34,154 nucleotides of DNA from Sulfuricurvum sp. (GTDB lineage Bacteria; Campylobacterota; Campylobacteria; Campylobacterales; Sulfurimonadaceae), in assembly GCA_030696285.1 (NCBI GenBank), contig JAUYSQ010000143.1, positions 1 to 34,154 of the forward strand, in the 5' to 3' direction. The notes beneath the pieces were generated by a model that was not told the origin of the DNA, ran no database searches, and saw nothing but the letters and a program-made list of their open reading frames with translations. The translations under genes and the position numbers were made by a program. Positions 1-34,154 of this stretch are shown here, piece by piece (positions within the stretch are counted from its first letter, which is position 1; each line of letters begins with the position of its first letter).

Positions 1-624
1 CATATAAACATTAAATCCGAAAATATCCCCTTTTTTTGCCAACCCAAAATAGAGGTCATTGGCAAAAAATGAGGTAACATTGGAACGATTTCCTGAAATG
101 CCCGTCGAAATTCTCCGTGGCAACATCCCAACTTGTCGAGGAATTTTGAGAATAGTCCGTTCCATTTCCAAAATAAGCGGATACGTCTCAATCTCACACG
201 TTTCTCCCATTCCGTCATACACATCCGTCACAATATTTCGGACATTATCCCCAAACGTCTGCCATGTGGTAATTCCTGTTGCATTTATTTGATGGAAAAC
301 GCTCAACACATTCTCACTATTGAGCCCATGCAGCTGTATTCCGGCGCGTGCGGTCAGGATGATGTCGAGAGAGTGTGCTTTGGCAATGTGCGCAACAGCA
401 TGAAGTTGTTGTGCAGTGATACGCCCTGCCGTGATACGCAAGCGAAGGGTAAATTCCTCTTCATCCAGAGGGTTATTAAAAATACCAAAATCTTGGAGAT
501 AAAAAACATCTGCCTCACTGATGGCATTAAAATCAAGGGTTTCGATTTGCGGGTAATAGTCATAAGGGATCATTTTCGCTTTGTAACGCTCACGCTTATT
601 GAGTTTTTTTTCCAAAACTTCCAC
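1..624 (-). CDS. Siroheme nitrite/sulfite reductase, N-terminal part (partial, runs off left edge)
   Basis: About 208 N-terminal residues are visible and the frame is open to the window edge, so the C-terminal part is missing. The visible part matches the ferredoxin-like half-domain of NirA/Sir-type hemoproteins: a segment reading FTLRLRITAGRITAQQLHAV, the motif TARAGIQLH, and then FGDNVRNIV, which is the GD-x-x-RN pattern of siroheme reductases. The family reduces nitrite to ammonia or sulfite to sulfide in the cytoplasm; the visible part does not decide between them, and the 4Fe-4S cysteines would lie in the missing part. I chose the GTG at 624, which directly follows a GGGGGAGGG stretch. 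A TTG at 615 has better spacing from that stretch and is the alternative. The gene lies downstream of a Crp/Fnr-type regulator and has its own perfect FNR-like box, so control by oxygen or N-oxides is likely (inference). Confidence 0.82.
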   Translation of the reverse strand, partial: MEVLEKKLNKRERYKAKMIPYDYYPQIETLDFNAISEADVFYLQDFGIFNNPLDEEEFTLRLRITAGRITAQQLHAVAHIAKAHSLDIILTARAGIQLHGLNSENVLSVFHQINATGITTWQTFGDNVRNIVTDVYDGMGETCEIETYPLILEMERTILKIPRQVGMLPRRISTGISGNRSNVTSFFANDLYFGLAKKGDIFGFNVYM

Positions 625-714: not shown

Positions 715-1302
715 TCATCCTTTATTCTGTCGATAAATCGAGCGACCCATGAACATCGCTTTCATGAGTAAACCAAACATCGCGAGAAGAAATACCTTTT
801 CGCTAAATTCCCGTTCTATCTTGACCATGGTATTGTCGGCATCGTACGAGACAAGATAACCATTGATGGCGGTAGATTTAAAATGTATCGGGAGAAACGT
901 TACGATAAAATCTTTCCCTTTAACCTTTGTTGTCATAATAAAGGGGGCGTACTCATGCAGTTTTGGAAATACTTTTTTTGACAAAGATGCATTGATTTTT
1001 ACAATGGTTTTGTTACTGTCACTGCTTTGTAACGATGCAAAATCTTGAGACATTTGGCTCTGAATAAAGAGTTTGCTTTCATTTGTTTTTAACCCTGTTT
1101 TCACTATCTCGATTCCAATGTTATCCTTCATAAGAGAAGGTAAATCATCACTCTTTGTAGCTTGTAACTTTTGCAAATGAGACGCTTTGCATGTTTCCAA
1201 TTGCGCCTCTTTTTCACCATACCATATCACTACCATGAGCAAAAAAACGGTGAGTGCAGCCAAATGAAATAGTTTAGGACTCCCTTTAGGAAAAAAGTTC
1301 AA
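715..1302 (-). CDS. Membrane-anchored periplasmic sensor-like protein without output domain
   Basis: I do not recognise a named family. The protein, about 195 aa, has an N-terminal membrane segment (LAALTVFLLMVVIWYG), about 130 residues predicted to be periplasmic, and a second hydrophobic segment near the C-terminus (VFLLAMFGLLMKAMFMG) followed by only a few basic residues. The stretch ending GYLVSYDADNTM resembles the end of Cache-like sensor domains found on chemoreceptors and diguanylate cyclases, but no HAMP, kinase, GGDEF or MCP part follows. The start is uncertain. A TTG at 1302 keeps a positively charged N-terminus before the first membrane segment and overlaps the end of the regulator gene by 17 nt. 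An open frame continues upstream to 1359, and ATG 1236 would lie inside the membrane segment. Co-transcription with the regulator gene is likely. Confidence 0.6.
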   Translation of the reverse strand: MNFFPKGSPKLFHLAALTVFLLMVVIWYGEKEAQLETCKASHLQKLQATKSDDLPSLMKDNIGIEIVKTGLKTNESKLFIQSQMSQDFASLQSSDSNKTIVKINASLSKKVFPKLHEYAPFIMTTKVKGKDFIVTFLPIHFKSTAINGYLVSYDADNTMVKIEREFSEKVFLLAMFGLLMKAMFMGRSIYRQNKG

Positions 1303-21984: not shown

Positions 21985-22016
21985 AGCTAGCATAAATACT
22001 TGATTAAGTGATTTTA

Positions 22017-23822
22017 ATGATTGAAAAAATACGCGACCTTCCTCACAGTGCCGGAATCTACCAATACCTTGACCCAAAAGGGCGAATCCTCTATATTGGC
22101 AAAGCCAAAGACCTCTCAAAACGGGTCAAAAGCTATTTTAATCTCACCCCCTCACTCTCCCCCAAGCAAACCCTTTCCCTTCGAATCCAAAAAATGCTCT
22201 CCGAAACCGTATCCTTGCACTACATCATCGTTGAAAATGAAAATGATGCCCTAATACTCGAAAATTCTCTGATCAAACAGCTCAAACCCAAATACAATGT
22301 TCTCTTGCGCGACGATAAAACCTACCCTTATATTTACATCGATTTGAATGAAAACTATCCCCGTTTTGATATCACCCGCAAAATTCTAAATGGGAAAAAA
22401 ATCCGCTATTTCGGTCCTTTTTCCACAGGGGCACGAGACATTCTCGATTCTCTCTATGAGCTTTTGCCGTTGGTACAAAAAAAAAGCTGTCTCAAAGGCA
22501 AACATGCCTGTCTCTTTTACCAAATGCACCAATGCCTCGGGCCCTGTGAATTTCCCGTTGACATACCCCATTACCGTAGCCTGGTAGACACTGCAGCTTC
22601 TTGGATTCAAAACAAAAAACTCCTCCTCCCCAAACTCAAAGAAAAAATGGAACTCTATGCCGAAGAGCTCCGTTTTGAAGAGGCGATGACATTACGGGAT
22701 CGCTGTGAGCGGATTGAAAAAAGCGAGATTAGCTCTACTATTGATTTGGCTCGTCAAGTTGCGTATGATATTTTTGCCATTGCAACCCACAAAGATCGCG
22801 GATGCATTGTCCGCCTTTTTATCCGTGATGGAAAAATTGCATCGAGTTCACACGACTTTTTTGCCGTTCATGAGAGTTTTTCACTGGATGAAGGGTATGA
22901 ACGGGCTCTGGTCAATTATTACGGCAGTGAAAAGCCCCCCATCATTGCCCCCATTCTCACCTCTCACTCCTTTGAGGAAAAAGAGTGGATAGAGGAGCAT
23001 TTAACCCTTCTTTTTGATAAAAAAGCCATTTTAGAAACACCCAAAATAGGGATTAAGAAGCAACTCACCGATCTTGCACTGACCAATGCCGAAGAACTTC
23101 TTAAAACCCACAAACCAAGCAATCTTGATTTGCTCATCTCACTGAAAGAGCTTTGTCTCCTCGAAAACATCCCCCATCGAATCGAAATCTTCGATAATTC
23201 CCATCTTGGAGGCGTTGCCACGGTGGGGGCGATGGTCGTCTATGCCAACGGAGCCTTTGAGAGGAGTTCTTACCGCCAGTACCATCTTCACGAGAGAGAC
23301 GAATACGGCCAAATGTCCGAAATGCTTACGCGGCGTATCGAGGGATTTGCAACCAACCCTCCCCCCGATTTATGGGTGCTTGATGGAGGTTCAACCCTGC
23401 GCGCACTCGCCCTTGAGCTGCTTCACTCAAGCGGTGTCACTCTCGACGTGATTGCCATCAGCAAAGAGAAACAAGATGCCAAGGCACATCGTGCCAAAGG
23501 TTCAGCACGCGATATTCTCCATAGTGAGGGCGATACGCTGCGTCTGGAACCCTACGATAAACGGCTTCAGTTTATCCAGCTTTTACGGGATGAAGCCCAC
23601 CGAAGCGCCATCACATTTCACAAAAAAACTAAGTTAAAAGAGGATCAAAAATCAAAATTTCTCTCTCTTAAGGGGATAACCCTCCCAAAGATTCATAAAT
23701 TATTAGAATACTACGGTACCTTTGAGGAAATCCAAAAGGGTTCATTTGATACACTTAGTGAGCTCATTGGGACAAAAGATGCCAAAATTATCCAAAACTT
23801 ATCACAAACGGAGCTAAACTAA
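22017..23822 (+). CDS. uvrC: Excinuclease ABC subunit C
   Basis: UvrC makes both incisions in nucleotide excision repair. The 601-aa length is typical. The N-terminal GIY-YIG nuclease (AGIYQYLDPKGRILYIGKAK) makes the 3' cut. A short cysteine cluster follows (KSCLKGKHACLFYQMHQCLG). The UVR motif (LRFEEAMTLRDRCERIEK) binds UvrB. The RNase H-like domain has the catalytic Asp in IEIFDNSHLGG and makes the 5' cut. The C-terminal helix-hairpin-helix begins near LKGITLPKIHKLLEYYG. I chose ATG 22017, with TAAG 8 nt upstream, over the GTG at 22008. Confidence 0.97.
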   Translation: MIEKIRDLPHSAGIYQYLDPKGRILYIGKAKDLSKRVKSYFNLTPSLSPKQTLSLRIQKMLSETVSLHYIIVENENDALILENSLIKQLKPKYNVLLRDDKTYPYIYIDLNENYPRFDITRKILNGKKIRYFGPFSTGARDILDSLYELLPLVQKKSCLKGKHACLFYQMHQCLGPCEFPVDIPHYRSLVDTAASWIQNKKLLLPKLKEKMELYAEELRFEEAMTLRDRCERIEKSEISSTIDLARQVAYDIFAIATHKDRGCIVRLFIRDGKIASSSHDFFAVHESFSLDEGYERALVNYYGSEKPPIIAPILTSHSFEEKEWIEEHLTLLFDKKAILETPKIGIKKQLTDLALTNAEELLKTHKPSNLDLLISLKELCLLENIPHRIEIFDNSHLGGVATVGAMVVYANGAFERSSYRQYHLHERDEYGQMSEMLTRRIEGFATNPPPDLWVLDGGSTLRALALELLHSSGVTLDVIAISKEKQDAKAHRAKGSARDILHSEGDTLRLEPYDKRLQFIQLLRDEAHRSAITFHKKTKLKEDQKSKFLSLKGITLPKIHKLLEYYGTFEEIQKGSFDTLSELIGTKDAKIIQNLSQTELN

Positions 23823-23897: not shown

Positions 23898-24311
23898 ATG
23901 GAGAGACCCGTTCCGCTCGATGAAGAATATTTTTTTGAAGGGCGCGCCATTGTGAGCGAAACCGATTTAGAAGGTGTTATAACTTTTGCCAATCGAAAAT
24001 TCTGTGAAATCTCAGGGTACAGTGCTGCTGAACTTGTAGGAGAACCCCATAATATCATCCGTCATCCCGATATGCCAAAAGCGGCATTTGCGCAAGTATG
24101 GAAAACGATCGAAGCAGGGACTATTTGGCACGGATTGGTCAAAAATCTACGCAAAGATGGAAAATACTATTGGGTAGACACGGAAGTTTCTCCTATGTAT
24201 GACAGTAATGGAAAGGTCAAAGGGTACATGGCTGCCCGTAAGCCAGCTTCTCGTAAAAACATTGAAGAGACTGCAGAAATTTATAAAAAAATGATCGAGC
24301 AAGAAAAATAG
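23898..24311 (+). CDS. Single-domain PAS protein of the Aer/CetB type
   Basis: The 137-aa protein is one PAS domain. Its motifs VGEPHNIIRHPDMPKAAF and GLVKNLRKDGKYYWV closely match the FAD-binding PAS of the aerotaxis receptor Aer and of CetB in Campylobacter. A redox- or energy-sensing role with a flavin is likely. No membrane segment, HAMP or signalling domain is present, so it must act through a partner. A GGAG sequence precedes the ATG. It is the first gene of a four-gene operon (gaps of 9, 11 and 14 bp). The 75 bp between uvrC and this gene show no convincing promoter hexamer. Confidence 0.92.
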   Translation: MERPVPLDEEYFFEGRAIVSETDLEGVITFANRKFCEISGYSAAELVGEPHNIIRHPDMPKAAFAQVWKTIEAGTIWHGLVKNLRKDGKYYWVDTEVSPMYDSNGKVKGYMAARKPASRKNIEETAEIYKKMIEQEK

Positions 24312-24320
24312 GAGGAGAGA

Positions 24321-25895
24321 GTGCTACTATACAATCACAAACAAGAGTTCATGGGGATAGACGATGAGGGGTTAAAATTACTGAATTACCCTTCCCTAGA
24401 AGAACTCTTAAAGGTTTGCACCGATGTTGCCGATCTTTTCGCCAACGAACCGGGGTATATTCATAATTTTAAAAATTTTGGATGGATCGATTTTCTCCTC
24501 CATGCCGATTCGGATGCCTCCAGTGCACTCGTTCACGCTAATGGGCGGGTATTTAGCTGTCATCTTACAGTTACCTCATTTTATTTACGAGACAACCCTT
24601 CACAAAATGGGTATCGTGTTGAAATGTCCCATATCAAAAGTGTCAGCGGCGAGGAGGTCAAGCCTCATATCATAACCCCAAAAGAGCCTCCAAAAGAGTT
24701 CATACCTCCCCATATCAATGTGAGTGACTTCGTCCCCTCCTCTCTTCCGGATCATAGCCATATCACACCGACACGCTTAAGCGAACCCAGTGTTTTAGAT
24801 ATTCCCGTTGCTGAATTCTCTGCACATGATGAGAAAGAAGAACTATACGCCGACTTCACTCCATCACCGAAACACATTGAGATTGATGAGCCCTTAGAAG
24901 CCTCTTTCTTACAGGAAATCACAGAAGAAGTTGAACCCCTAACCCCTGTAAAATCGGTTGAAAGCGCACAGTATACTAGCAATGAAAGAGAGTATCTTTC
25001 TCATCACAAAGTTGGGAATGACTATCTTTACAATCCTAATATTGCAGCAAACGAGCTTGGTCTTCCCGTTGATCTTATTGAAGAGTTTATTGGCGATTTC
25101 ATTCAACAATCCTACGAATTCAAAGAGGCTCTTTTTGAAGCGTGTGCAAAAAATGATTTCAATAATCTCCATATTTTGTCTCATAAACTCAAAGGGGTTG
25201 CAGCAAATCTTCGTGTTGAAGATGCTCTTGAAACCCTCAGTATTATCAATACCTCCATGGAACTTGGTGAGATTGAGGCGAACTTGAAATATTATTATAA
25301 TATTCTTGCGAAGCTCGAGGGCAAGGAGAGCGACGATACCTTCTTTGCAAAATCCTCCGATGTCATTACACCCGAAGCGATAGACGATATTTATGCATTC
25401 ACGCTAAAGCAGCATGATGACGAGCCTCTTATGGTACACCAAGAGGAGATTAAGATATCAGATCCACGTGAAGATCAAAGCAGATACGAAGAGGTCCCTT
25501 TTGAAAAAGAGCTTTTAGATCTCAACTCTACCATCACAGAGTCCAAAAAAAGCATTGAACCTGTCATAGAAGATTCTTCGGAAAATATCCCTGAACCTCT
25601 CCACTATGATTCACACTCAACCGCAAGAGCATTGGGAATCGACCCTGCCTTTATGAATGAATTACTCTCGGATTTCCGACATGATGCACAAATGATTAGT
25701 GAGCAGATTGTAAGCGCAATCGGTGCCTTTGATACTGCTCTTTGGAATGAAAGTGCTTCGAAGCTTAAGGGAATCAGTGATAATCTTCGTCTCACCGAAA
25801 TATCCGATGAACTTGCAGTTCTCATCAAAACCCACGACGCGCAAGAGGCTAAAAAAGCTTCTATTCGCCTTATGGGCTATCTCGATCAACTTTAA
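24321..25895 (+). CDS. Two-HPt-domain phosphotransfer protein with PAS-like N-terminus
   Basis: The start is a GTG with a strong GGAGGAG site. Residues 1-110 look like a PAS-related sensor domain ([20 protein letters not shown], then [10 protein letters not shown]). An acidic, Pro-rich linker follows. An HPt domain at about 235-335 has the phospho-acceptor in [11 protein letters not shown], with H288. A second HPt-like domain at about 425-524 aligns well with it, but the position of the His is a Ser (S480 in [11 protein letters not shown]). One functional and one pseudo-HPt domain are therefore visible. The protein should carry phosphate between the hybrid kinase encoded next to it and the small response regulator at the end of the operon. 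Confidence 0.85.
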
Positions 25896-25906
25896 GAGGA
25901 ACGACC

Positions 25907-28900
25907 ATGCATTTAGGACTTAAAAATCGACTTCGCCTCATCAGTCTCCTTCCGATTCTGATTTTGTTTTCACTCGCCAGTTACTATGTGTACAGTTCAT
26001 ATATGAGTTTTCAATCCGCTCAAATATTACAGTCACGCTTGGAACAAAATAAACAGCTCAACGATTTAATCAACAATGTCTCTCGCGAACGAGGGATGAC
26101 GGTGATGTTTTTGGGAAATGCTTCAACGGCTACTCTTAAATCACTTCAGGCACAGCGCCGGATCGTAGATCAAAAAATCAAAGAGTTTACTGCCAGCTAC
26201 CCCTCACCTCAAATCACCGCCATGATTACTGCTTTGGAAAAAGCACGAAATCAATCACGTCCTTCTGTTGATAACCAGACGGCTGACTTCAATGAAATCT
26301 TTGACGATGTTTACGGAAAAGCACAAACAGCGCTGATTGGTGAGCTCTCTGCATTGGCCTCAGTTCAGCTTGATGACCAAATCGCTTCTATGGAAGGGAG
26401 CTATTTCTCCCTTATACGAGCCAATGAGCATACCAGCTTAGAGCGTGACTATCTGACCTATATCCTTTCACGAGGGACGGCACTGGAAGATGAAGAGCTT
26501 GATCGCTGGCTGGGGCTTGTTGCAAAAGCGGATGCTCTCAATTTTGACAGTATAAGTGAAAAAAATCTTAAAGCATCCCTCACAGCCTCTCTCTTAACCG
26601 AAGATAATGTTGAATTGTTTCAAGATATTACCTCTGAGCGCAGTACAATCTTACGCTCTAGCAACGAAGGGCAGTTTGAAACGCAATCGGGCATTTGGTT
26701 CGCCATGCTTTCCGAAAAAGTCAATGCTATCAATGAAACTGAAAAATTCTTGATTAGTCAAATGGATGCACGAGCAACCGCGGTTAAAACACAAGCGGTG
26801 CAATTTCTTATCATTGCCATTACGGTATGGCTTGTAGCGGTTCTTATCGGTATTTTAGGTGTTCTCCTCTCTAACGAGATTGCAAAAAATATTAAAAATC
26901 TTGAATCGGTTCTCAAGCGTGTTGCTGAAGATACACACGATAATGAAGCTGAAGCTCTGAGCCAATCAATTAACCTCGATACCGCAGAGGGTACGGCTCA
27001 GGCCTACTCGCTGCTAGAACGTATCATTGAACAAACCATGACCGATAAACAGTACGCAATGGAAGCGTCTGAAGCCAAATCGATGTTCTTGGCCAATATG
27101 TCACATGAAATTCGTACACCTCTAAACGGTATCGTAGGATTTACTGAATTGCTCAAAGACACTGAGCTCCATGATGAACAGCGTGAATTTATTGATATTA
27201 TCGAAAAAAGTTCTGAAAATCTCCTTGAAATTATTAACAATATCCTTGACCTCTCTAAAATTGAGAGCAACAAACTTGAAATTGAAGACATTGCCTTTAA
27301 TGCAATGGATGAGTTCGAAAGTGCCGTTGAGGTATATGCCGTTCGTGCATCTGAAAAACATATTGACCTTGGGTGCTTCATTGACCCTAGCCTTGAGCGA
27401 CCGCTCAAAGGGGATCCAACCAAAATCAAAGAGGTTATCATTAACCTTCTCAGTAACGCCGTTAAATTTACCAACAGCGGTGGAAGCGTCAACGTCGATG
27501 TTCGCCGTATCGAAAGCGATGAACCGAATCGTGCTCTTGTACGCTTCCAGGTCAAAGACAGCGGTATCGGTGTCACCAGTGAGCAAAAATCACGTATTTT
27601 TGAAGCCTTTGGGCAAGCAGATACCTCCATTACCCGCAAATATGGCGGTACAGGTCTTGGTCTTACGATCTCAAGCCGTTTCGTAGAGCTTATGGGCGGT
27701 AAACTCGACCTTGTCAGTGAGCCGGGCAATGGAACAATGTTCTTCTTTACATTGTCATTTGAAGAAATTGAGAGTCTCAATGAGCCTATCAAAGGATCTT
27801 TTACCAATATCAATGCCGTTATTCACGAAAGTAAAACCAAGAAAAAGCTCCAAAGTACCTATCTTAAAGAGTATCTTGATTACCTTGGCGTAAGTTATAC
27901 GACGTTCAATGAAATGGAAGAATTAAAACTCTTAGAGCGTCAAGTCAATTATGACCTTCTGTTTATTGATAACGATTATATTAATGATGACGAACTGATC
28001 CAGTTTGCAGCTGCTAATGAGCAACTCGTCCTCATTACCAAATCCTACTATATGAAAAAAATCGACTCTATGGGGCTGGAAGTATTCAAAGTTCTTTACG
28101 AACCGCTCAATAGTTCAAAAATTCGTTCCGTACTCGAATCGTATGATGCGGAAGCATTTAATACTCGTAAACAAAAATCTTCACGCCGTAAAAAGTTTGA
28201 TGAAAAAAATTCTCGCTTTGCTGCAAATGTTCTGGTTGCTGAGGATAATGTCATTAATCAAAAACTCATCAAGCGGACGCTAGAGGATTTAGGACTTACC
28301 ATTACTGTTGCAAACAACGGTCTTGAAGCGTTTGAAAAACGTAAAAATGGCGAATTTGATCTTATCTTCATGGATATTCAGATGCCAGTTCTTGACGGGA
28401 TGGAAGCAACTCAAGAGATTTTGGATTTTGAAGAGGATTATGGTCAAAATCATGTCCCTATCATCGCACTAACTGCCAATGCTCTTAAAGGGGATCGCGA
28501 ACGCTTTATGGCAGTAGGGATGGATGAATATACAACCAAACCACTTGTCCGTAATGACATTATTACTTTGCTCAATAATTTTCTTTCTCATAAGATTATC
28601 GAGATCAATGTTGTCCCAAAATCAGTCGATGAGCTTATTAGCAATGATCTAATTGAGACACAGCCTAAAGAGGCACAAGAAGAGGTAGCCATTCTCGTCA
28701 ATGAAGTGCCTAAAGAGGTGATTGTGGATGAGATACCTGAAGTAGAGAGCGTTGTTATCACAGAGGAAGCTACCGTACTAAATGAGCCGGAAGAGCAAGA
28801 GATAATTTCGGAATTAATCTCTGCTTTCGATGCGGATATTTTGCTTGCCAAACAAAATCCAATCGAGATGAAGCTGTTTGGCCGTATTCTTGATGATTTA

Positions 28901-29176
28901 GGCTACACCTACGTCAGTGTTAATAGCACAGACGCTTTAAAGAGCAATATCATAAATAAACATTACAAGCTGGCATTGTTTGATAAAACATTACCCAATC
29001 TTGATCTCAAAGAACTCTATGATATAATCCGCTCTAACAACAGCGATATATCATTGGTCATGCTGATTGATCCCAATGTGGATACCGATCAAAATGATGC
29101 AATGTACGTCCATGAGATGATTAAAAATCTTGTTAATAAAGATCTTTTACGTCTCGTATTTGAAAAATTTATCTAA
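25907..29176 (+). CDS. NIT-domain hybrid histidine kinase with three receiver-like domains
   Basis: The 1089-aa membrane kinase begins with a transmembrane helix (about 12-32). A NIT-like periplasmic domain follows ([19 protein letters not shown] and a later helical repeat); NIT domains bind nitrate or nitrite. The second transmembrane helix is at about 298-320 and leads into a short linker. HisKA has H400 in [10 protein letters not shown]. The ATPase domain has [17 protein letters not shown] and GTGLGLTIS. Residues about 635-750 form a degenerate receiver: D688 is present, but the conserved Lys is E732. Residues 775-890 form a canonical receiver with E779, D780, phospho-Asp D823 and TKPL. 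About 975-1089 is another degenerate receiver, with K982-Q983 replacing the acidic pair and D1026 retained. An AGAGGA site precedes the ATG. Confidence 0.92.
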
Positions 29177-29190
29177 AACAGGAATCATAA

Positions 29191-29568
29191 ATGGACGGTA
29201 AAAAACTTAAAATTCTCGCAGTTGATGACGATATGATTAATCTAAAGTTATTGAAATCGATGTTAATGAAGTCGCCGAATGTCAGTGCGGTTGTAGAAGC
29301 CAAGAATGGTGCTGATGCGATTGGAATACTAAAATCACAAGATGATATTGATATCATCCTACTTGATATTATTATGCCTGTTATGGGTGGTATCGAGATG
29401 CTGAAAGTCATCCGTGCCGATGACTCTCTTCGTCAGCTTCCCGTCATTGTCCTCACAACCGATGAAACCAAAAAAGGGGAAGCATTGGAATGTGGAGCAA
29501 ACGGATTTCTAATGAAGCCAATCCGCGAAAAAGATGTTGTCTCTAAAATCGCGCAACTCACTATTTAA
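29191..29568 (+). CDS. Single-domain response regulator (CheY-like)
   Basis: The 125-aa protein is a complete receiver with the acidic cluster D12-D13-D14, phospho-acceptor D59 (LLDIIMP), a Thr-Thr switch pair (VLTTDE) and the conserved Lys in MKPIRE. It has no output domain. An AGGA site lies 8 nt before the ATG. As last gene of the PAS-HPt-kinase operon it is probably the final phosphate acceptor or sink of the relay. Its target could be the flagellar motor, another enzyme, or the HPt protein itself. Confidence 0.93.
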   Translation: MDGKKLKILAVDDDMINLKLLKSMLMKSPNVSAVVEAKNGADAIGILKSQDDIDIILLDIIMPVMGGIEMLKVIRADDSLRQLPVIVLTTDETKKGEALECGANGFLMKPIREKDVVSKIAQLTI

Positions 29569-29672: not shown

Positions 29673-30134
29673 TTACAGCTTCTGCCAAGACCTTTTATGA
29701 ACCCGTATCGGCTCTGTAGAGAGACTACGATCCGTTACCGTTACATCCATCAATATCATCGTATCCTTGCCCGTACCAACCGCTAAAATATGGGTATCGT
29801 CACAGTTGACAGGCTTTGCTCCACGAAACGAATAAGATAACGTTACATTAGCATCAAACATGGGGTTATTGCTGGCATCATTGACGGTAATCTTAAGGTT
29901 TTCCAAACAAAGGCTTCCTGCTGCCGGAGAAATATCAAATCCCTGCGCCCGCATCACAGCAAACTCTGTAGCACTCAGTGCTAACAGTTCTGCTTGTGCA
30001 CGAAGATAATTGTCACCGGTAGATTTAGTTCCAGTAGCCGCATTTCCGAGTAATAATACCCCTCCAAGTGCCACAAGCACCACAACAAAAATTGCCAATA
30101 TCATCGCAAACCCGGATCGTTTAGTAGCGTACAT
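29673..30134 (-). CDS. MshP-like minor pilin
   Basis: The 153-aa protein starts MYATKRSGFAMILAIFVVVL, a prepilin-like leader ending in Gly followed by a long hydrophobic helix. The residue at +5 is Leu rather than the usual Glu. This, the size, and the later AQAELLALSATEFAVMRAQG resemble MshP/PilX-type minor pilins. I chose the ATG at 30134, with AAAGGAG upstream, over the longer frame from 30161. It overlaps the upstream mshO-like gene by 14 nt. It ends directly against repeat B. Assembly at the tip or base of a type IV pilus is inferred. Confidence 0.75.
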   Translation of the reverse strand: MYATKRSGFAMILAIFVVVLVALGGVLLLGNAATGTKSTGDNYLRAQAELLALSATEFAVMRAQGFDISPAAGSLCLENLKITVNDASNNPMFDANVTLSYSFRGAKPVNCDDTHILAVGTGKDTMILMDVTVTDRSLSTEPIRVHKRSWQKL

Positions 30135-31062
30135 GAACTCTCCTTTCACGACAGATTTCATTCGTCTTGGTATTGCTCACACTTAGATTCGTATCCAGCC
30201 CTCGCATACAAACTTTTAACCGCCACACCAGTCCTCTATCGGTTAAGTTGTTCTCAGCTTGAAAATCTGTACCATTATAATCAACATAAAAACTGGCAAC
30301 ATTGCGCCCTAAAACATTTTGGCTACCAGCAGTATAACTCTCATTACGCCATGGACGAAAATTACTGTACATCGTAAAATTACCATCATCCAACACCCGA
30401 AACGCATAGCCTGTACGGATGAGATATTTTCGTCTGCCATCGGTCGCATTATGCTCTAAATCTGCATCCATAGTTAATGCTGTTGACGTAAAGCTGTTAA
30501 TCGTATGAAATCCGGCAAGACCGCCAGCACCATCCCAATTGTACCGGCTACAAGTACTATTATCATCTCTCTCAAAAGTAATATTACTATCATAAATAGC
30601 GGATTGAGCTAACCCTGACCCTGGGAAAAGCCCCCCTATGACCGTATCTGCCATCGTATAGTTGGCATCCGCCGCCGCTAATATAAGACCAGCGACCGTA
30701 ACATCCTCGCTCCACCCCGGACGATTACCCGAAATTCCCCGCAAACTGTCCTCATCAACGGCGATAAAGGCAACCGTATAATCAGCAGCATCATTTTCCT
30801 CTGGAGGACCATAACAGCCTGTTGCACCATCACGGTCGAGATTAACGATGGAATTCATAATAGCTGTTTCAAAATATTTGGAAAGCTGTTCAAGTATATG
30901 ATCGGCTTCGGCTACCCTCTTACTGTACTCTTGAGTACGGTATATCCCCTCATAGTATTGGCGTATCGCTTCGAGGGCAATTCCCCCTACTATTCCCATA
31001 ATCACAATGACAAAGAGGAGCTCGATAAAGGTAAAACCGCGACGGTAATGGTGAAATCTCAT
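30121..31062 (-). CDS. MshO/PilW-like minor pilin
   Basis: The 313-aa protein begins MRFHHYRRGFTFIELLFVIV. It has a typical type IV prepilin cleavage site (RRG, then FTFIE) with Glu at +5 and a hydrophobic helix. The long C-terminal part is rich in Asp, Asn and aromatic residues and has a few cysteines, as in MshO or PilW minor pilins. It starts directly at the stop of the mshD-like gene and overlaps the mshP-like gene. The family is assigned by N-terminus, size and context; the globular part was not recognised. Confidence 0.78.
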   Translation of the reverse strand: MRFHHYRRGFTFIELLFVIVIMGIVGGIALEAIRQYYEGIYRTQEYSKRVAEADHILEQLSKYFETAIMNSIVNLDRDGATGCYGPPEENDAADYTVAFIAVDEDSLRGISGNRPGWSEDVTVAGLILAAADANYTMADTVIGGLFPGSGLAQSAIYDSNITFERDDNSTCSRYNWDGAGGLAGFHTINSFTSTALTMDADLEHNATDGRRKYLIRTGYAFRVLDDGNFTMYSNFRPWRNESYTAGSQNVLGRNVASFYVDYNGTDFQAENNLTDRGLVWRLKVCMRGLDTNLSVSNTKTNEICRERRVHVRY

Positions 31063-31710
31063 CTAATTGCCTTTGTTGGATTTAAAAAATGTCAACGTCG
31101 TATCCACACCCAAAGCAGTATTATTAAACCGTGTTACCACACGCTTGAGATGGCTCGTTCCTGACGCTGACGGAGCCATTGCTGTAGACGAGCCAAGAAT
31201 CCAAGTAGCCGTTTGTGTGCTGCTTCCAGTTAAAGGGGTAACGGTTGATGAAACATACGTCACTCGATATGTCGCTGTTATATCGTAACTCTCCCCCGTA
31301 GAAGTCAGGATCGTTATTGGCTCACTCCCATTATTAAGCTGTTCGATACCATTCGCGAGAATACCGCTTCCTGTGCTAGGTATACCAGACGGAGCATTCA
31401 GTATATCACACCGCATCGAGGAGACGTTTTCATCCGAACCGATACGATAACCGCCAACTCGAGAACAATTTAGATCTGCCATTGCATTAATATTTAGAAT
31501 TCTTGAATCTGATATTTCGTAGTTATCATCCCAGCGTGTCTGAAATTTATCGAGTGTCCATCCCGATAAACGGGACATCACATCATCATCGATCGCCATC
31601 CCTTTAGATGCTTGAGACGCAATCGACATCATCGAGGGGATTGTCATCACACTAATTGCGATAATGACAATCGCAAAAATAAGCTCGATCATCGCCATTG
31701 CAGGACGCAT
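31063..31710 (-). CDS. MshD-like minor pilin
   Basis: The 215-aa protein begins MRPAMAMIELIFAIVIIAIS. The leader is four residues with Ala at -1, and Glu is at +5. The rest is Ser/Thr-rich with two cysteines near the middle. I chose the ATG at 31710 because GAGGG lies 9 nt upstream and short leaders of this kind are usual in Campylobacterota. The ATG at 31728, which overlaps the stop of the mshQ-like gene as ATGA, is the alternative. It is the second visible gene of the pilus operon. Confidence 0.75.
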   Translation of the reverse strand: MRPAMAMIELIFAIVIIAISVMTIPSMMSIASQASKGMAIDDDVMSRLSGWTLDKFQTRWDDNYEISDSRILNINAMADLNCSRVGGYRIGSDENVSSMRCDILNAPSGIPSTGSGILANGIEQLNNGSEPITILTSTGESYDITATYRVTYVSSTVTPLTGSSTQTATWILGSSTAMAPSASGTSHLKRVVTRFNNTALGVDTTLTFFKSNKGN

Positions 31711-31724
31711 GCTGTTAGCCCTCA

Positions 31725-34154
31725 TCATCGAATTGCCGGAGCATAGTCACTGGTACTTCTCCATCCTGTGCTCGTAGAATTTTTATTATCTTTCGTAGAT
31801 TCAGAAACGCTCTCCGCGCTACCCGTTCTTCCTACCAAGTTTCCTATTCTAATATTAAAACACGGATGCGTTAAGCAGTCAATAGCCGTAGGGTTGACAG
31901 GTTCAAGATACCCCAATGCATTAGGCGCATACCACAACCACCCCTCTGTATTAATGTGTGCTGTATAATTTCCCGAAACCGGATACCCAGGAAAATTATA
32001 GGTTTTTGTTCCATTCGTATCATACAGTGATGCAGTGGGATTAGCTCCTCCTGTCAACACAAATTCAATACTCATATTTCCATCCTTGGACTCCGAGTCA
32101 TGCAAGCTATTTATATACCACAGCGAACCTGCTGGATATTCTGTTAATGATGGCACCACATTCAGAAGATTGGGGGCATTATACACTTCGTAATACGCGA
32201 ATGCATCAAACGGTGTATTTCTGGTAGCCCGTACATTTAAAGTCCCAATACGACCATACACATGGGTTACATTAAAGTCCATCAGAGTCGTTCCATTTGC
32301 ATTACCAACTATTCCATCCGCTTGACGACTGCACTCACCCGCTACGGTGCACGTCACATTGATATCCTTATATTCAACTCTTTGCGGATCAAGCGGTGTC
32401 GTCGTATTGCGGTCGAAATTGAGTCGTATTACCGTTCCGACAACACCATTATCAACTTTTGTAAAATTGCTGTCATCCACAGTAGTTTTCATCACATTTG
32501 CTGCAACATTGGTTTTATTTGAATCAAAAGCTTGAACTCCCGCTGCACTGCTGTATACCACCCTGGAAACAAAAGGGGTTGCCAATGTCGTATTAGCATT
32601 GTGTCCCATGGTTACATTCAAATCTTTTGCATAACACTCTTTGACAAAATTACTTAATTGATTTCCCGCAAAACCAACAGCGCCTATTGTTCCCGTTGAT
32701 CGAACCGACATATTCATGTCATTGGCATTGGCTAAATCAGCATCATACACAAATCCTTCCCCCCCGGCAGTAATTGCAGCTGCCGTTGCACCTAAACCGT
32801 GTGTCAATGCTAGATTAAATTGGTAAGGATGAAATGTCATCAAATAATCTCTATATTTTAGATTATTTTCAACATTATCATGTCTACTTTCGATAGTACA
32901 TCCGACAAGATTATTGAGGGTTGTACCGGTTAATGATACACTCAATGCCTGCAACGGAACAACTGTACTGTTTACAAGACAATCATCTCCGGCTAAAAAA
33001 TGGCTGCCTGTCTGATGAGCTTGCATTAATGGATCCCAATCCACTGCCGTCCATGTTTTATCGATAATATTCAGTCGATATTCCCCAACTTGATTTAAAA
33101 CTCCATTACCATTAAAGAAACCATCACCTATATAAAAACTTTGAGGTGAACTGTTTGTATCATTACAGCCTGCTGTGCTCGGCGCTGTTGCGGGTTCCCA
33201 AACGAGAGTAATATTAAAATCATTACTGGCTCCTCTAAAATCCCGCGTGTATCCCAGCGTATTGGTATTATCAATGTGATTTGTCGCATTGATCTCATAA
33301 TTGTAAATGTATCCACCCGCCATATTGACACGTGCACTATTGGGAGTAAGCACACCTGTTCGATCGGTCGCAAATGAACTGAGCGTCGCATTCGTTGTTT
33401 GATTGATATCTTTTAGATTGACAGTATAGCTCTCTGGACGGATTGCAAAGTTATCGCGTGAACATAAGATATTGGTATTGTATCCATACAAACACTCCAT
33501 ACATATCGCTAGATTATGCTTATCAATCCCCTGATTTCCAGCATTTCCGCAAGCAACAGCTACAAGGGTAGTTGTATTTCCCGGATTAGAAGGTATTTCA
33601 ACAGGTTGTGAACAATGCTGAATATCTTGGACCAATTGCGTAAAATTTAAAATCTTCGTCTCACCTGGCTGTGTCCCTGGCGCCGTTTGAACCAACGAAT
33701 CGTTACCGTCATTCGTTACATTAAACGATACCCTATACGCTGCATTGGTAGTAGCTTTTTTGAAAAAATCTTCTGCATTTGTCAGCGTTGAAGCAGCTAG
33801 CACAATTCCATCAGAAACTGCCCCATCTGCAATTGCCGTATTAATCGTATCTCTATTAAAATTGATTTGCGAAACATTATTATCAAACGTCACCCATACT
33901 CTAGGAGTCATTGCACTAGAGGGTTCATGGCACGCTGCATCGACATCATGAAATTGACTCGCATCGATGAGCTCAACGGCAACGGTTGTACTAACGGATT
34001 TCGGAGTATCGGTCAAATTGGCATCAAATGCGGCAATGCGAAAATTACCGGGGCGTTTTACTACTTGCGTTGTGAGATTATAATAGCGATTTGCCGTAGC
34101 ACTATTGTACAATCCCGCATCAACTACACTAAAAATCCCCCATTCTGGGGTATA
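31725..34154 (-). CDS. MshQ-like surface protein (DUF6701-like), partial at the 5' end
   Basis: At least 809 residues are visible and the frame is open to the right edge, so the start is missing; a TTG at 34112 inside the frame is not a real start. The segment ILCSRDNFAIRPESYTV matches the hallmark CS-x-x-x-F-x-I-RP region of MshQ, the large protein encoded in MSHA pilus loci. The protein is rich in Asn and Thr and in NxT/NxS sites, has scattered cysteines including AICMECLYG, and shows alternating beta-strand patterns, as expected of a secreted adhesin. The three pilin-like genes follow directly. It is probably exposed on the pilus or the cell surface and may mediate attachment (inference). 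Confidence 0.75.
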   Translation of the reverse strand, partial: YTPEWGIFSVVDAGLYNSATANRYYNLTTQVVKRPGNFRIAAFDANLTDTPKSVSTTVAVELIDASQFHDVDAACHEPSSAMTPRVWVTFDNNVSQINFNRDTINTAIADGAVSDGIVLAASTLTNAEDFFKKATTNAAYRVSFNVTNDGNDSLVQTAPGTQPGETKILNFTQLVQDIQHCSQPVEIPSNPGNTTTLVAVACGNAGNQGIDKHNLAICMECLYGYNTNILCSRDNFAIRPESYTVNLKDINQTTNATLSSFATDRTGVLTPNSARVNMAGGYIYNYEINATNHIDNTNTLGYTRDFRGASNDFNITLVWEPATAPSTAGCNDTNSSPQSFYIGDGFFNGNGVLNQVGEYRLNIIDKTWTAVDWDPLMQAHQTGSHFLAGDDCLVNSTVVPLQALSVSLTGTTLNNLVGCTIESRHDNVENNLKYRDYLMTFHPYQFNLALTHGLGATAAAITAGGEGFVYDADLANANDMNMSVRSTGTIGAVGFAGNQLSNFVKECYAKDLNVTMGHNANTTLATPFVSRVVYSSAAGVQAFDSNKTNVAANVMKTTVDDSNFTKVDNGVVGTVIRLNFDRNTTTPLDPQRVEYKDINVTCTVAGECSRQADGIVGNANGTTLMDFNVTHVYGRIGTLNVRATRNTPFDAFAYYEVYNAPNLLNVVPSLTEYPAGSLWYINSLHDSESKDGNMSIEFVLTGGANPTASLYDTNGTKTYNFPGYPVSGNYTAHINTEGWLWYAPNALGYLEPVNPTAIDCLTHPCFNIRIGNLVGRTGSAESVSESTKDNKNSTSTGWRSTSDYAPAIR

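Follow-up and report, generated by a model that had tools for sequence, protein, structure and literature searches.

A PAS-HPt-kinase-receiver gene cluster in the Campylobacterota, apparently an undescribed phosphorelay

Four co-directional open reading frames in Sulfuricurvum encode, in this order, an Aer-type PAS protein, an HPt protein, a hybrid kinase with a NIT sensor and a single receiver. The cluster is a real unit, and it apparently specifies an undescribed phosphorelay. Of 150 genomes of the order, 84 have the kinase, as counted from full or near-full matches in a profile search, and a signalling unit found in that many sampled genomes appears to lack a described function. Its carriers are sulfur- and hydrogen-oxidising lineages that are important to nitrogen and sulfur cycling. 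The explanation that fits best, and that we hold with a confidence only a little above even for the whole of it, is that the cluster is an ancestral phosphorelay of the Campylobacterota that has mostly been inherited vertically.

The four genes and their products

The window, that is, the whole stretch of 34,154 nucleotides that was analysed, carries the four genes on the plus strand with intergenic gaps of 9, 11 and 14 bp (Table 1). A preliminary description of this DNA had reported four genes spaced by no more than 14 bp, and its reading frames, strand, spacing and domains agree with the present analysis. The four residues that it had proposed for phosphotransfer (H400, D823, H288 and D59) each lie at the canonical motif and at the position given. 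Among named relatives, Sulfuricurvum MAGs have the receiver genes most similar to that of the window (88–91% identity), which places the window in Sulfuricurvum. Beyond the receiver gene, minus-strand genes lie at positions 29673–34112 of the window, where many relatives have lon; one of them encodes a prepilin-type methylation motif.

Table 1. Genes of the cluster (window coordinates) and domains of their products (residue numbers)
Feature	Position	Strand	Remarks
uvrC	22008-23822	+	upstream neighbour conserved in most families; outside the circuit
Aer-type PAS gene	23898-24311	+	137 aa, stand-alone
HPt-protein gene	24321-25895	+	524 aa, GTG start
PAS-like domain	HPt protein 1-107		AlphaFold, Foldseek
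HPt1	HPt protein 237-335		H288; Pfam Hpt, AlphaFold
His-less pseudo-HPt (HPt2)	HPt protein 429-524		Ser at the His position
NIT hybrid kinase gene	25907-29176	+	1089 aa
TM helix	kinase, before the NIT sensor
NIT sensor	kinase 53-286		R62, R118, R180; between two TM helices
TM helix	kinase, after the NIT sensor
HisKA and HATPase	kinase core, after the second TM helix		H400; Pfam HisKA, HATPase_c
Pseudo-receiver	kinase 636-750
Intact receiver	kinase 774-896		D823
C-terminal pseudo-receiver	kinase 976-1088		D1026; Lys replaces the acidic pair
Single-domain response regulator gene	29191-29568	+	125 aa

The first gene product matches the Pfam families PAS_3 (70 bits) and PAS_9 and aligns with the PAS domain of E. 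coli Aer (8dik) at E=1e-34. The FAD contacts of Aer are H53, N85 and R115 (PMC9668731), and their counterparts in the window protein are H51, N83 and R114. The RHxD motif of Aer is also present, as R55-H56-P57-D58 (RHPD). These Aer-type contact residues are kept in most of the linked PAS orthologues, which upholds the earlier assignment to the flavin or Aer type. The protein is thus predicted to be, probably, an FAD-bound redox sensor.

The second gene product is more complex than the plain phosphotransfer protein of the preliminary description. Its Hpt match in Pfam scores 27.9 bits against a cut-off of 24.6, and the PAS, NIT kinase and receiver assignments of the other three genes likewise stand, but this protein consists of a PAS-like domain, HPt1 and the His-less HPt2. 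AlphaFold predicts two four-helix bundles, at about 220-332 and at 431-523, with pLDDT>90, and a PAS-like N-domain; the linkers between the PAS-like domain and HPt1 and between HPt1 and HPt2 are disordered and of low confidence. Foldseek retrieves HPt and PAS structures with a probability of about 1 but with E>0.05, and a phmmer search of the protein against the PDB gave no match. HPt1 combines the four-helix bundle with the His of the HxxKG motif (H288), and HPt2 of the window does not. Judged from its sequence, HPt2 is nevertheless a true HPt relative despite the Ser in place of His, because a model made only from the His-bearing repeats of relatives matches it at E=1e-12.

In the kinase, Pfam recognises NIT, HisKA, HATPase_c and Response_reg domains, as had been proposed. 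Beyond the earlier description, the structure model contains three receiver-like folds, of which the middle one alone is intact. Residues H400, N517, D551, D823 and K878 are invariant in 22 orthologues. In the C-terminal pseudo-receiver, D1026 is invariant, and Lys stands at the acidic-pair site (K982 in 22/22, Lys at 983 in 20/22). Two loci of group f10 (L074 and L211) have a longer orthologue, in open frames of 1329–1441 aa, with two receiver-type matches and the C-terminal pseudo-receiver. A 1384-aa frame at another locus (L208) was considered as an HPt-kinase fusion; this was ruled out, as it has no HPt or PAS-like match.

The NIT domain scores 96.9 bits against a curated Pfam cut-off of 24.9, and its profile matches NasR (4akk) at E=4e-9; phmmer with the sensor alone found no match in the PDB. 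The arginines of the domain are well kept in the orthologues (R62 in 20/22, R118 in 22/22, R180 in 20/22). The ERG and ER motifs of NasR from Klebsiella oxytoca, a member of the NIT family, align with the window kinase, and E179/R180 fall on NasR E175/R176, which have been named as predicted nitrate-pocket residues (PMC7496416). The relationship to NasR and the aligned arginines support the earlier view of a sensor of the nitrate/nitrite type, and binding of nitrate or nitrite is plausible. NasR works as an antiterminator and carries an RNA-binding domain, whereas the NIT domain of the window belongs to a kinase and lies between two TM helices. The same genome encodes a second NIT-domain protein (G000:C226:19067-19753, 43 bits).

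The fourth gene product is a single receiver domain (Response_reg, 85.5 bits) without an output domain. Its residues D13, D14, D59, T90 and K109 are invariant in 19 orthologues.

Linkage and inheritance

Gene linkage was followed in 40 loci of one order and then in 20 further loci together with named contigs. An HPt-type gene lies directly 5' of the kinase gene in all 35 kinase-bearing loci, in some of them with only a Sel1 gene between. The receiver gene adjoins the kinase gene in 29 of the 35, and contig ends cut two more; some loci of groups f7 and f6 have no adjacent receiver gene. Groups that show the complete PAS-HPt-kinase-receiver order are f1 (the family of the window), f4 (Hydrogenimonas), f16, part of f6 (Sulfurovum) and part of f18. 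In f16 the cluster is not found between uvrC and lon; it stands head to head with rplI in 7/7 loci and keeps PAS, HPt, Sel1, kinase and receiver genes together. The cluster thus occupies two genomic contexts (uvrC/lon or rplI), and the genes therefore travel together. Chance adjacency of the four genes was ruled out, since their order is kept across family-level groups and in both contexts. The preliminary description had looked to gene order across the Campylobacterota. This order is conserved for HPt and kinase and mostly for the receiver, so these genes are not unlinked in most relatives, but linkage of the PAS gene is confined to part of the phylum.

An exported Sel1-repeat protein of about 130–150 aa (L046, L048, L050, L054, L202 and L216) is encoded between the HPt gene and the kinase gene in f4, f16, part of f18 and part of f20. 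The window has no such gene. The Sel1-repeat protein may partner the NIT sensor in the periplasm.

The looser linkage of the PAS gene raises the question of whether it belongs to the relay at all. Many lineages have no PAS gene beside the cluster, the linked copies do not form one clean clade, and the genome contains 19 further PAS matches, of which five or more are stand-alone. The gene could then simply be one member of a large Aer-type PAS family that happens to lie here, with no part in the relay. Where it is linked, however, it comes first in the cluster; this holds in five family-level groups and in both genomic contexts, and the gaps that were measured run from -4 to 20 bp. A bystander role is considered unlikely.

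The kinase tree follows the family groups. A quicker kinase tree, which has a few unstable long-branch rows, was the basis of the state counts; on it, five changes of state are counted for the PAS gene and one for the HPt His. The HPt protein is His-bearing in 23/23 loci with a PAS gene and in 7 of the 17 scored loci without one, the His being missing in the remaining ten. This association was rejected as independent support because the His changed only once on the tree.

The phosphate route

In the favoured explanation, the NIT domain would be exposed, probably in the periplasm, between its two TM helices and would bind a small oxyanion-type ligand, most likely nitrate or nitrite, which would set kinase activity. 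Phosphate would pass from H400 to D823, then to H288 of the HPt protein and finally to D59 in the single-domain regulator, whose action would be through protein contact. The linked Aer-type PAS protein, probably FAD-bound, would add a cytoplasmic redox input, and the HPt protein may offer its PAS-like N-domain as the pairing partner. Modulating or scaffolding the relay would fall to the His-less HPt together with the two pseudo-receivers. Sensing of redox state and of N-oxides is plausible, because the NIT arginines and the Aer FAD residues are conserved; that one circuit would read the two together is an inference.

The four-step route through H288 does not hold as a general feature. Among the 38 HPt-type proteins scored, at least one His-bearing repeat is found in 26, and 12 have no His in any repeat. 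A large family branch that includes Sulfurospirillum and other lineages has no phosphorylatable His in this protein; the set includes groups f7, f10, f20 and f22, and the HPt-type protein of Sulfurospirillum deleyianum is His-less as well. In all of these, the kinase and receiver residues stay intact. Moreover, His-bearing and His-less repeats stand side by side in 23 of the 38. Such a pattern would be expected if the HPt-type protein were mainly a scaffold or an inhibitor, with the kinase phosphorylating the receiver directly and the HPt step being a later addition in one branch. In the branch of the window, however, no part of the protein is better conserved than the repeat with the [12 protein letters not shown] motif, as for a working HPt. 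We consider the scaffold or inhibitor reading rather improbable.

AHP6 of Arabidopsis lacks the phosphorylatable His. This plant protein resembles HPt proteins and inhibits a relay (PMC3572949). It exists as a separate protein, whereas in the window the true and the pseudo HPt share one chain. A more elaborate version of the favoured phosphorelay is doubtful, but can be formulated as a relay with two inputs: the flavin PAS protein might pair with the PAS-like domain of the tandem true/pseudo-HPt protein and in this way gate the phosphate that comes from the nitrate-type kinase, the dead HPt and receivers might be built-in brakes, and Sulfurospirillum might keep the brake form only. Since true as well as His-less HPt proteins occur naturally beside intact kinases and receivers, the role of pseudo-HPts and pseudo-receivers in bacteria is directly testable.

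Signal, output and known systems

The distribution of the kinase was compared with that of NapA. In favour of the preferred explanation, the kinase is commoner in NapA-positive genomes (74 of 115) than in NapA-negative ones (10 of 35), counts that are uncorrected for kinship. One of the ten NapA-negative carriers is the genome of the window itself, which has a NapA fragment. An absence of NapA from this genome was rejected as an assembly effect, as the last 46 NapA residues lie on contig C175, together with NapD/NapL-like genes. On the other side, several kinase-bearing genomes score as NapA-negative, including the single-contig genome G102, which has no NapA match at E 1e-100.

A chemotaxis or energy-taxis circuit was also weighed, in which the receiver would act like CheY on the flagellar motor and the PAS protein would work as in CetB. 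CetB of Campylobacter jejuni is the PAS partner in a bipartite energy-taxis system (PMC2628428). The single-domain CheY-like receiver, the Aer/CetB-like PAS protein and the presence of FliM in most kinase carriers are in line with this idea. Yet 13 of the 17 genomes without a FliM match have retained the kinase, among them every one of the ten Sulfurovaceae sampled that carry it. A flagellar or chemotactic output is therefore unlikely to be the general one, since flagella-less Sulfurovaceae keep the system. Unlike Aer and CetB, the window PAS protein is encoded with a phosphorelay and not with a chemoreceptor; no chemoreceptor gene is found in the cluster, and the PAS gene stands between uvrC (or rplI) and the HPt gene. 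A role in taxis only is disfavoured, and we regard the taxis circuit as very improbable.

The preliminary description knew of no system with this exact set of genes. None was found in the literature searched either, which comprised open-licence papers and left most subscription papers outside. The nearest layouts on record are ShkA-ShpA-TacA of Caulobacter crescentus and the BarA-type kinases. In the former, a hybrid kinase is followed by a separate HPt protein and then by a regulator (PMC7010744). In Foldseek, the window kinase matches ShkA (6qrj) best and GacS (7z8n) second, and in both ShkA and the window kinase a pseudo-receiver inside the protein precedes the working one. ShkA is driven by c-di-GMP, whereas the window kinase has a membrane NIT sensor and an extra C-terminal pseudo-receiver; the window system also differs in its tandem true and pseudo HPt with a PAS-like domain and in its regulator without an output domain. 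The best NCBIfam model for the kinase is BarA, with 417.7 bits over the core and receiver, far below the cut-off of 890. The kinase resembles BarA/GacS over this region, but it has a NIT sensor and no HPt domain.

Another stand-alone Aer-type PAS gene of the same genome (L161, contig C175, 1426-2267) lies directly 3' of the NapL-like and NapD genes. Its closest PAS relatives, in the other genomes G126, G103 and G064, are separated from NapA by about 4 kb, which ties this redox PAS protein to the nap operon.
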